In this document: one piece after another, positions 26,628 to 31,910 of the stretch
Layout: each line of letters begins with the position of its first letter
How positions within the stretch are numbered: the stretch's first letter is position 1
DNA from: Phascolarctobacterium sp.
GTDB lineage: Bacteria; Bacillota; Negativicutes; Acidaminococcales; Acidaminococcaceae
Reading direction: 5' to 3'
Assembly (NCBI GenBank): GCA_021203775.1
Contig: JAJQAO010000026.1
Coordinates: 3,540-61,110, forward strand
DNA length: 57,571 bases
The notes under the pieces: generated by a model
Told to the model about the DNA's origin: nothing
Databases searched by the model: none
The model's input: only the letters and a program-made list of their open reading frames with translations
Position numbers and translations under genes: made by a program

Positions 26628-26650
26628 AGCCCGCTTTTGCGGGCTGTCTT
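26628..26650 (+). terminator. Intrinsic terminator after coaX
   Basis: AGCCCGC / GCGGGCT, loop TTTT, then GTCTTT. Confidence 0.75.
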
Positions 26651-26681
26651 TATAATTGACAGTATGGAGAGGGAATTCCCA

Positions 26682-27659
26682 ATGAAAATAGGCAACCTTG
26701 AGCTTGCTGTACCTGTAGCACTGGCACCCATGGCAGGCATAACCGATCTGGCGTTCAGATTACTGTGCAAAAAGATGGGCTGCGGCCTGACTGTTTCTGA
26801 AATGATCAGTGCCAAAGGACTGCTGTATAATAATGCCAAAACAAAAGAAATGCTGCGTATTGATGACAGGGAACGTCCTACTGCCATACAGCTGTTTGGC
26901 AGTGTGCCGGAAGATCTGGCACGGGCAGCCAGGATTGTCGCTGATAGCGGAGCCGACATTATTGATTTTAATATGGGCTGTCCTGTAACTAAAATAGTCA
27001 ATAACGGGGAAGGATCGGCATTAATGAAGGCTCCTGACCTCGCCTACGAAATTCTTGCGGCCATGACTGATGCGGTTAAAATACCGATTACTGTGAAGAT
27101 AAGGGCCGGATGGAATGCTTCCTGCCGCAACGCGGAAGATATTGCAAGGCTGGCTGAGCGTGCTGGAGTAGCGGCAATATCTGTGCATGGGCGCACTAGG
27201 GAGCAGTTTTATAATGGAAAGGCCGATTGGCAGATAATTGCCTTGGTCAAGCAGGCAGTAAGAATACCCGTATTCGGCAATGGAGATATTTTTTCAGCTG
27301 AAGATGGCATAAGAATGCTGGAAGAGACTAGATGCGACGGGTTAATGGTAGCCCGCGGAGCTGATGGAAACCCGTGGATTTTTGAACAGCTGCGTGACGC
27401 CGTCCAGGGGAAACCGCTACCTCCAGCACCTGATATCGATACGCGGCTTAACGTTGCCGCAGAACATCTGCATATGCTTCTTGAACTGAAGGGTGAATAT
27501 GTTGCCGTGAGAGAAATGCGTCGTCATATTTCCGCTTATCTCAAAGGAATGCCGCATGCAGCAGCATTTCGCTGCCGTTTTCATCAGGTGGTCAGCAAGG
27601 AACAGTTTCTGAAGCTTATAGAAGAGTACAGGCAGTGCTATCATGACTATGTGTCATAG
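26682..27659 (+). CDS. dusB: tRNA-dihydrouridine synthase (DusB-type)
   Basis: 325-aa FMN-dependent enzyme reducing uridines in tRNA D-loops. TIM-barrel start APMAGITDLAFRLLC, catalytic Cys100 in FNMGCPVTKIV, then HGRTREQFYNGKADW and GNGDIFSAEDG for FMN phosphate binding. ATG 26682 is chosen (GAGAGGG upstream, and the family starts directly with this motif); an ATG at 26664 would add six residues and the earlier start lies in the coaX terminator. Orthologue of yacF, which in Bacillus is close to lysS, as here. Confidence 0.95.
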   Translation: MKIGNLELAVPVALAPMAGITDLAFRLLCKKMGCGLTVSEMISAKGLLYNNAKTKEMLRIDDRERPTAIQLFGSVPEDLARAARIVADSGADIIDFNMGCPVTKIVNNGEGSALMKAPDLAYEILAAMTDAVKIPITVKIRAGWNASCRNAEDIARLAERAGVAAISVHGRTREQFYNGKADWQIIALVKQAVRIPVFGNGDIFSAEDGIRMLEETRCDGLMVARGADGNPWIFEQLRDAVQGKPLPPAPDIDTRLNVAAEHLHMLLELKGEYVAVREMRRHISAYLKGMPHAAAFRCRFHQVVSKEQFLKLIEEYRQCYHDYVS

Positions 27660-27745: not shown

Positions 27746-28660
27746 ATGGATACTGCTCAATGCTGTAAACGCGTTATAGGTATTAGTCTGGGTTCATCAG
27801 TCCGTGATGCGAAAGCAGTCTTGAGATTGGGCGGTATAGAAATTTTTCTGGAGCGCCGCGGAACTGACGGCAGCCTCAGCAAGACCCGCAAGCTGTTGGA
27901 GCAGTGGGATGGCAAAGCTGATGCAATAGGATTAGGTGGTACGGATCTTTATGTGTACGCTGGCGGCAGGCGCTATACCTTCTGGCAAACGGCCAGATTG
28001 GCAGCAAATGTCAAGCATACTCCTGTGCTTGATGGCAGTGGACTGAAAAATACCCTGGAACGCCGCCTGATTAAAAAATTTGCAGAAAATGGAACAATTC
28101 CAATACGTGGAAGCCGGGTACTTCTGACATGCGGTGTAGACCGCTTCGGTATGGCGGAAGCACTGCAGGCGGCAGGAGCGAAAATTACTTTCGGAGATTT
28201 GGTCTTTGGGCTTAACATCAATAAACCGCTGTATTCACTGAAAGCTCTCAGTACATGGGCTGCACTGCTTGTTCCTGTTATTACTAAATTACCGGTGGGA
28301 TGGTTTTATCCAATAGGATCAGCCCAGGAGAAACGAAAATTGAGGCATCCGGAATATTTTCTGGAAAATGATATTATAGCAGGGGATTTTCATTTCATAA
28401 AAAAATTTATGCCGGACGAATTGCCGGGAAAAATCATTATTACAAATACCGTTACTGCAGGGGACAGGGAAATGCTGCGTCAGGCAGGAGTGAAAATTCT
28501 GGTTACGACTACACCGTGCCTTGAAGGGCGCAGTTTCGGCACTAACATAATGGAGGCCGTACTGGTAGCGTCAAAAGGTGCTGATCAGGCACTCACGGCA
28601 GCTGAATATATTGAGCTTTTAGATTATTATAAGATTGATCCGTCAGTCGAATGGCTGTGA
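27746..28660 (+). CDS. Quinate 5-dehydrogenase-like Rossmann protein
   Basis: 304 aa. It looks like the proteins annotated as quinate 5-dehydrogenase in Firmicutes, but I see no shikimate/quinate-binding signature and treat that name as unproven. The N-terminal half contains IGISLGSSVRDAKAVL and a Gly-rich GLGGTDLYVYAGGR. The middle, RVLLTCGVDRFGMAEALQ (124-141), reads like a Rossmann strand and turn. The C-terminal part ends with VTTTPCLEGRSFGTNIMEA (253-271), an unusual conserved-looking motif with Cys258. No signal peptide or clear membrane segment. It has its own promoter and is 21 bases upstream of the acyl-ACP-reductase-like gene, so they form a probable two-gene operon. Confidence 0.7.
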   Translation: MDTAQCCKRVIGISLGSSVRDAKAVLRLGGIEIFLERRGTDGSLSKTRKLLEQWDGKADAIGLGGTDLYVYAGGRRYTFWQTARLAANVKHTPVLDGSGLKNTLERRLIKKFAENGTIPIRGSRVLLTCGVDRFGMAEALQAAGAKITFGDLVFGLNINKPLYSLKALSTWAALLVPVITKLPVGWFYPIGSAQEKRKLRHPEYFLENDIIAGDFHFIKKFMPDELPGKIIITNTVTAGDREMLRQAGVKILVTTTPCLEGRSFGTNIMEAVLVASKGADQALTAAEYIELLDYYKIDPSVEWL

Positions 28661-28681
28661 ATAAAGGAGTAATAATATAGA

Positions 28682-29767
28682 ATGGAAAAATTTGCTTTTA
28701 TCCTGCACCCTTTATCTGCAGGAGATATGGGATTGGTATCGCCATTTTTAAAATATGTACCCGAAAAAATGCTGGAAGCATGCCTGAAAAAAAAGAAGTC
28801 CTTTAAAGTTTCGCATATTACGGGTGTAAAAAGCCCATATGCGGAAGCAGAAGGCTGGTTTGTAGGCTGTCCGCTTACGGCACGGCAAATGCTGGAATTG
28901 CCGGAAGAGTTTGTGATTGATAGGATAATTGAAGCAGGGCATATAGCGGAGGATTTGGGAGCAAAAATTGTCGGTCTCGGGGCATTCACTTCTATTGTAG
29001 GCGATGCCGGTATTACTGTGGCAAAACATTTAAACATAGCGGTTACTTCTGGTAACAGTTATACGGTTGCAACAGCTGTTCAAGGTACAAAAGTTGCGGC
29101 TGTAATGATGGGAAAATCCCTTGATAACTGTCATTTGGCCGTGGTAGGTGCAAGCGGCTCTATTGGCGCGGCAGTAGTAAGATTACTGGCTGGCGAGGTA
29201 CCACATATCACTCTTGTGGCAAGAAAGCTTGCTCCACTGGAAAATCTGGCACAAGATATTATTGCCAAGGAACAATGTCGGGTAGATGTGACCAGTGATG
29301 TTCACGGATCCCTTAAGAAGGCAGACATTGTCATTGCGGTTACAAGTGCAATAGATTTTTTGATTTCCCCTGAGGATTTAAAACCTGGGGCGGTGGTCTG
29401 TGATGTAGCAAGACCCCGTAATGTTTCCAGAGAAGTATCTGTTAAACGCAGAGATGTTCTGGTTATTGAAGGTGGGGTTATAAATGTTCCCGGAAATGTG
29501 GATTTCCATTTTAATTTTGGATTTCCGCCGCGCACGGCCTACGCCTGCATGGCAGAAACTATGATTCTCGCACTTGAATCCCGATATGAAAATTTCAGTT
29601 TAGGACGTAACCTTGATGTCAATAAGATCAAGCTGATTGCTAAACTGGCTGAAAAACACGATTTTCGTCTGGCAGGATTTCGTAATTTTGAGCGTGCCGT
29701 AACGGAAGAAGAAATTGCCTTTGTCAAGCATTCTGCTTTGGAAACCCTTGCGGCTCACAACTGTTAA
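28682..29767 (+). CDS. Acyl-ACP reductase-like NAD(P)-dependent oxidoreductase
   Basis: 361 aa. The resemblance to cyanobacterial long-chain acyl-ACP reductase (AAR, COG5322) extends over the whole chain. Points of match: the N-terminal substrate domain with VTSGNSYTVATAV (AAR: TTGNTHTAYV); Rossmann motif VVGASGSIGAAVVRLL (Gly156, Gly159, Gly162); LVARKLAPLENL; EGGVINVPGNVDF; and a C-terminal block YACMAETMILALESRYENFS followed by LGRN and KHDFR. The cysteine aligned with the AAR acyl-thioester residue is present as Cys289. AAR reduces acyl-ACP (or acyl-CoA) to fatty aldehyde. No aldehyde-deformylating oxygenase is in the window, and one would not suit an anaerobe. Substrate is therefore inferred, not shown. 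Confidence 0.75.
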   Translation: MEKFAFILHPLSAGDMGLVSPFLKYVPEKMLEACLKKKKSFKVSHITGVKSPYAEAEGWFVGCPLTARQMLELPEEFVIDRIIEAGHIAEDLGAKIVGLGAFTSIVGDAGITVAKHLNIAVTSGNSYTVATAVQGTKVAAVMMGKSLDNCHLAVVGASGSIGAAVVRLLAGEVPHITLVARKLAPLENLAQDIIAKEQCRVDVTSDVHGSLKKADIVIAVTSAIDFLISPEDLKPGAVVCDVARPRNVSREVSVKRRDVLVIEGGVINVPGNVDFHFNFGFPPRTAYACMAETMILALESRYENFSLGRNLDVNKIKLIAKLAEKHDFRLAGFRNFERAVTEEEIAFVKHSALETLAAHNC

Positions 29768-29769
29768 TC

Positions 29770-29798
29770 TTGGCAGGCATAGGGCAAAAAATTATAAT
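29770..29798 (+). promoter_or_regulatory. Promoter for greA-lysS
   Basis: TTGGCA (29770-29775), 17-base spacer, TATAAT (29793-29798). A second TATAAT with TG extension lies at 29805-29810. Confidence 0.7.
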
Positions 29799-29897: not shown

Positions 29898-30374
29898 ATG
29901 GCTAATAAAGAGACTATTTTGACAGCTGAAGGTCTGAAAAAACTGGAGAACGAATTGGAAAATCTCCGCAGTGTACGCCGTCACGAGGTTGCAGAACGGC
30001 TGAAACTTGCTATTTCTTATGGTGATATCAGTGAAAACTCCGAATATGATGACGCCAAAAGTGAGCAGGCGTTTATTGAAGGCCGTATTCTTGAACTTGA
30101 GCAGATGATTAATACTGCAATCATAATTGATGGCAAAGCCAGCAAGAAAAAGAATGTTGTTTATTTGGGTTCAACTGTTGTTGTAAAGGATATGGAAACC
30201 GAAGAAGAAGAAACTTATACTATTGTAGGTACTACTGAAGCAGATCCTTTTAAAAATAAGATTTCAAATGAATCTCCAGTTGGGGCTGCCATTTTAGGTC
30301 GTAAAGTAAATACCGTGGTTCAGGTAAATACTCCTGTAGGAGAACTTTCCTATAAAATTTTAAAGGTTAAATAA
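29898..30374 (+). CDS. greA: Transcription elongation factor GreA
   Basis: 158 aa. Stimulates transcript cleavage by backtracked RNA polymerase. N-terminal antiparallel coiled coil (1-75) with the acidic tip in ISENSEYDDAKSEQ, then the FKBP-like C-terminal domain (ETYTIVGTTEADP, ISNESPVGAAILGRKV). Length is normal. Sixteen bases before lysS without a terminator, so greA-lysS form an operon, as in several other Firmicutes. Confidence 0.97.
   Translation: MANKETILTAEGLKKLENELENLRSVRRHEVAERLKLAISYGDISENSEYDDAKSEQAFIEGRILELEQMINTAIIIDGKASKKKNVVYLGSTVVVKDMETEEEETYTIVGTTEADPFKNKISNESPVGAAILGRKVNTVVQVNTPVGELSYKILKVK

Positions 30375-31910
<1,536 letters not shown>

Follow-up and report, generated by a model that had tools for sequence, protein, structure and literature searches.

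A stand-alone protein of Bacillota, here termed RED, forms its own subfamily within the superfamily of acyl-ACP reductase (AAR) and PigE, and is inherited and lost together with an uncharacterised neighbour, Q304. We consider that RED is probably a cysteine-thioester, NAD(P)H-dependent reductase of acyl-ACP or acyl-CoA that, with Q304, forms a fatty aldehyde destined for a lipid or an amine. The gene lies in a 57,571-nucleotide stretch of Phascolarctobacterium sp. DNA (the window, on contig C5 of a genome of 814 kb and 73% completeness), where its open reading frame is genuine, encodes 361 amino acids and contains every motif quoted in an earlier sequence-only reading. Only 21 bp separate the Q304 stop from the RED start (Table 1).

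RED is homologous to cyanobacterial AAR along its whole length, bearing out the likeness across the entire chain described in that reading, and the similarity in phmmer and NCBIfam searches is far beyond chance. Among PDB chains, phmmer places PigE (4ppm, E = 3e-33) ahead of AAR (6jzq, E = 2.4e-20), and a sequence search also matches the carmabin TAD domain at E 1e-7. The NCBIfam PigE profile NF053554 matches over profile positions 1–355 of 837 at 2.5e-64 and 218 bits, below its cut-off of 850, and the 361-residue chain holds no class-III transaminase. The AAR profile check that the sequence-only reading had advised divides: the match to TIGR04058 is significant (5.1e-32), yet its 111.5 bits fall below the equivalog cut-off of 449.7 bits. 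That cut-off was reached in 0 of 21 related genomes and in 1 of 14 control genomes; Synechococcus elongatus was among the controls that matched, and Thermus composti and Deinobacterium chartae matched weakly. RED is thus not an AAR proper, since the cut-off is missed, the PigE reductase is nearer and the tree sets RED in a separate clade. In the broad sense, RED belongs to the AAR/PigE (COG5322) superfamily by full-length homology, its dinucleotide-binding loop and its thioester cysteine. Pfam Shikimate_DH (PF01488) covers residues 145–253 only, the nucleotide-binding domain, and glutamyl-tRNA reductase and shikimate dehydrogenase domains match weakly, over the Rossmann domain only.

The predicted fold is of the AAR type. 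An AlphaFold model built from 26 homologues (pLDDT 88) matches AAR crystal structures over the whole chain (Foldseek; 6jzy, E 5.6e-23, TM 0.77/0.81), and the overlay on AAR suggested by the earlier reading agrees, in this model, with a three-domain fold that includes the N-domain. The carmabin TAD domain is the second-best fold (Foldseek; E 4e-20, TM 0.75/0.71). Outside the family the best fold has E = 1.8e-8 and TM 0.31–0.38, the remainder have TM of about 0.3–0.5, and shikimate dehydrogenases do no better than about E 5e-6, at TM 0.36–0.52. RED does not have a complete AroE fold with its substrate domain, the AAR fold being far closer. The sequence-only reading had named as fatal to its proposal a protein of the shikimate dehydrogenase family that lacks the N-domain of AAR; the fold rejects this identity.

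The active site retains the main features of AAR. In the printed PDB alignment C289 of RED aligns exactly with AAR chain residue 294, the thioester cysteine that carries the acyl group (PMC7089970), in agreement with the earlier placement of Cys289. This cysteine is kept in all close operon homologues compared (46–100% identity), the only exceptions being a homologue with serine and a locus that is truncated. Conserved as well are the GxxGxxG loop, E292 and H9, the last of which matches AAR H7 by position and not by direct alignment. AAR binds the phosphate of NADPH with arginines R189, R193 and R314 (PMC7089970); the first and last are kept in RED as R181 and R309, and R193 is replaced by P185; AAR Y247 corresponds to R244. 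Given these two replacements, the cofactor and pocket of RED may differ from those of AAR. Either NADPH or NADH is possible as cofactor, and the TamH reductase domain is specific for NADH (PMC9594044).

Table 1. Features of the window and, in the last three rows, of loci in other genomes
Feature	Position	Strand	Remark
dusB	26637..27659	+	conserved left flank
Q304 (P0002)	27746..28660	+	uncharacterised 304-aa partner
Shine-Dalgarno-like AAAGGAG ahead of RED	28663-28669 (approx.)	+	sequence
RED (P0001)	28682..29767	+	361 aa, ATG start; stand-alone member of the AAR/PigE superfamily, predicted to reduce acyl thioesters
Dinucleotide-binding loop GASGSIG, residues 156-162	29147..29167	+	alignment, conservation; AAR: 162-GATGDIG-168 (PMC7089970)
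Cys289 codon	29546-29548	+	alignment; counterpart of AAR Cys294
Sigma-70-like promoter TTGGCA-17-TATAAT, 11/12	29770..29798	+	match to the consensus alone; such sites no more numerous than in shuffled sequence
greA	29898..30374	+	conserved right flank
lysS	30390..31910	+	conserved right flank
HTH gene before Q304	L062 4548-5090; L063 4554-5084; L171 7358-7885; others
PlsY-RED fusions	L205 8133-9824; L117 4717-6486; L195; L196; L197	- (L205, L117)
Cys-less RED paralogues	L118, L122, L123, L124, L128, L129, L145, L146, L163		most adjoin Q304

RED holds a fixed place beside housekeeping genes, which we take, from our own reading of the sequences, to be dusB, greA and lysS. The order dusB-[HTH]-Q304-RED-greA-lysS is found in most loci examined, and Q304-RED-greA-lysS recurs across Negativicutes, Syntrophaceticus and others. 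The promoter-like site after RED suggests that greA-lysS may also have a start of their own. Between dusB and Q304 many genomes have a conserved HTH gene (about 180 aa, weak Tfx/HTH_3 similarity) that Phascolarctobacterium lacks, the window genome included.

Q304 is highly conserved (alignment A2) and more widely spread than RED: 226 of the 299 genomes sampled from the phylum carry it, about three quarters. Among 74 genomes chosen as a systematic subset, with Q304 status taken from the phylum search and kinship ignored, Q304 accompanied strong RED in 36 of 36 genomes and strong RED occurred in 0 of 17 genomes that lack Q304 (Fisher 1.6e-6). Some genomes have Q304 without detectable RED, and within the window's own family two genomes (G002 and G012), from genera without RED, are devoid of Q304 too. 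Searches of Q304 against Pfam, NCBIfam and PADLOC gave no match, with no defence match in PADLOC, a PDB sequence search gave no significant match, and no Q304 was found on plasmids. Its model (pLDDT 90) predicts a two-domain Rossmann-like fold for which AAR (0.52) and TAD (0.51) have the top listed TM-scores and E-values favour other Rossmann enzymes. Profile-profile comparison of RED and Q304 found no relation, also with widened alignments; on this result and the E-values we make no claim that Q304 and RED share an ancestor. In Deinococcus, 33 of 33 genomes have a 'quinate 5-dehydrogenase' family (PMC9425974).

Across the phylum, 204 of 299 sampled genomes carry a RED homologue, a few of them weak matches that are perhaps other Rossmann proteins. 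The usual state is a single copy at 50–60% identity, and carriers include Succiniclasticum, Desulfofundulus, Ammonifex and Syntrophaceticus. RED is no oddity of one anaerobe; it is widely conserved in Bacillota, where both its partner and its locus are fixed. A tree made by a quick method, with several long branches and one AAR only, splits into four groups: stand-alone Bacillota RED, Bacillota transaminase-RED fusions, PigE-type proteobacterial fusions and AAR. In Phascolarctobacterium faecium DSM 14760 a frameshift near codon 40 breaks RED (L065 6001-6250), either a mutation or an assembly error.

Fusions of RED-like domains suggest what the product may be used for. The gene that follows Q304 in G262 and G350, in RED's slot, is a class-III transaminase-RED fusion; Aminotran_3 was identified in the G350 protein and transaminase families in that of G262, which sits between dusB-HTH-Q304 and lysS. 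Transaminase-RED fusions are also present elsewhere in Bacillota genomes, and transaminase activity has been described for the Thermaerobacter and Thermincola proteins (PMC10829540). Among Q304 carriers they occur in 3 of 36 strong-RED genomes versus 9 of 21 without strong RED (p = 0.005, kinship ignored), and the genes around the separate transaminase-RED fusions did not point consistently to any pathway. In five genomes, which represent three families, a RED-like domain with the cysteine is fused to a domain resembling PlsY (PF02660; E 6e-21 and 3e-23), in genes that lie elsewhere than RED's operon slot. The motifs of this PlsY domain are divergent, as judged by eye, so the domain may be merely an anchor. 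Both kinds of partner suggest that an acyl aldehyde may be used in amine or glycerolipid chemistry; they back a fatty-aldehyde chemistry for RED, and it is from the fusions only that we infer the fate of the aldehyde. An 817-aa RED fusion in G390 was discarded as merely an open frame across GC-rich DNA with an N gap.

Some divergent RED paralogues in the operon slot have Ala, Trp, Ser, Asp or Glu in place of Cys. They sit on long branches, and some have damaged dinucleotide loops. Of the genomes with such forms, G178, G207 and G071 carry a Cys-bearing fusion elsewhere, and for G066, G085, G176, G218 and G323 one match only was reported. Because the cysteine is lost in slot paralogues beside Q304, catalysis is not required in every lineage; possibly the pathway has decayed in these lineages, or else the RED fold also serves Q304 non-catalytically. 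At L126 (2772-3755, minus strand) and L132 (3189-4094, minus strand) the RED slot holds proteins of about 300–330 aa with barely any or no detectable RED similarity, possibly strongly decayed RED copies.

Known relatives delimit what is distinct about RED. In sequence it is closest to the N-terminal reductase domain of Serratia PigE (4ppm; NF053554), along nearly the full chain, and the two have the cysteine and the NFSLGR region in common. PigE, which yields a precursor of prodigiosin, carries a class-III transaminase on the same chain, whereas RED stands alone in a housekeeping locus with Q304 and in a separate clade. With AAR of Synechococcus elongatus (6JZQ/6JZU/6JZY/6JZZ) RED shares the three-domain fold, thioester cysteine, GxxGxxG and two of three NADPH arginines, but it differs in its score under the family cut-off, Arg for Y247, Pro for R193 and the lack of an ADO partner. 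TamH, KecF, PP_2782 and the Thermaerobacter and Thermincola homologues have a reductase domain and cysteine as in RED. Fusions of this type are known from Bacillota too, with transaminase activity tested (PMC9594044, PMC6498172, PMC10829540); they carry a transaminase and form a separate clade, whereas RED has none and is tied to Q304. The carmabin TAD domain (9e4s/9e4u/9e4x/9e50), close in fold, has lower sequence similarity and belongs to a natural-product pathway.

Homology makes an AAR-type first reaction at C289 the most likely one for RED. In AAR the acyl group is transferred to Cys294, ACP or CoA leaves, and hydride from NADPH yields the aldehyde (PMC7089970); the TamH reductase domain converts acyl-ACP to an aldehyde that later becomes an amine (PMC9594044), and PigE reduces a thioester (PMC8341465). 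By analogy, Cys289 of RED would take up a fatty acyl group delivered by acyl-ACP (or acyl-CoA), and hydride from NAD(P)H would free that group as an aldehyde. RED would act jointly with the co-conserved Q304, perhaps by direct interaction, and the aldehyde would then enter an anaerobic pathway of lipid-related chemistry that leads to an amine, alcohol or ether-type product. Aldehyde-deformylating oxygenase (PF11266) is absent from the window genome (73% complete) and 20 relatives, with Synechococcus elongatus positive as control; the sequence-only reading had likewise seen none, and its absence from these 21 genomes makes an alkane end product unlikely. Literature on plasmalogen synthesis in Acidaminococcaceae held nothing useful for a link to RED.

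Other readings of RED account for part of this evidence. It could chiefly be a partner of Q304, as subunit, substrate carrier or sensor, with an ancestral reductase activity still present and a conserved essential role alongside Q304. The constant presence of Q304 alongside strong RED in the 74-genome set, the occurrence of Q304 without RED and the Cys-less paralogues that still adjoin Q304 in several lineages all favour this, but the cysteine, dinucleotide loop and other active-site residues are near-invariant in the main clade, the long branches of the Cys-less forms are as expected for relaxed proteins, and several of these lineages have a Cys-bearing transaminase-RED or PlsY-RED elsewhere; we regard it as unlikely. 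If its substrate were a thioester other than a fatty one, or an aminoacyl group, as for glutamyl-tRNA reductase or a semialdehyde-forming enzyme, RED would feed amino-acid or cofactor metabolism. We think this distinctly improbable: the weak glutamyl-tRNA reductase and shikimate dehydrogenase matches, and the name 'predicted amino acid dehydrogenase' given to COG5322 (PMC10829540), speak for it, but those matches lie only over the Rossmann domain of a complete AAR fold with N-domain, characterised relatives use carrier- or CoA-bound acyl chains, and the PlsY fusion indicates lipid substrates.

Foldseek E-values rank AAR first among solved folds, which speaks for RED as a genuine cyanobacterial-type AAR gained by transfer and making fatty aldehyde or alcohol; the scores below the TIGR04058 cut-off in 21 of 21 genomes searched, the higher PigE score, the separate clade with deep spread in Bacillota and the lack of ADO make such an origin very improbable. 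That RED is a shikimate- or quinate-dehydrogenase-type enzyme, as the Pfam match might imply, is hardly credible, for the nucleotide-binding domain alone matches and the whole-model fold stands far behind AAR.

Under the acyl-thioester reductase reading that we prefer, the separate branch, wide carriage and co-inheritance with Q304 point to an undescribed lipid-related step in anaerobes that is probably common. If the activity is confirmed, most Bacillota sampled would possess a dedicated means of forming acyl aldehydes without oxygen, one that generic labels like 'shikimate dehydrogenase' and 'predicted amino acid dehydrogenase' would mask. The operon supplies the partner, Q304, and the fusions the likely downstream chemistry, transamination and glycerolipid assembly. 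More tentatively, and with the odds against it, HTH-Q304-RED could be a near-core anaerobic Bacillota pathway to a reduced-acyl membrane lipid, an aldehyde-derived amine, alcohol or ether, with Q304 a new enzyme or partner family. Alkylamine lipids occur in Deinococcus-Thermus, and by analogy machinery of this type together with a transaminase might serve such lineages.

Three metagenome-assembled genomes labelled 'Acholeplasmataceae bacterium' (L063, L064 and L066) carry a locus whose RED is about 65% identical and whose gene order is syntenic with that of Acidaminococcaceae; on this identity and synteny, the label looks wrong.
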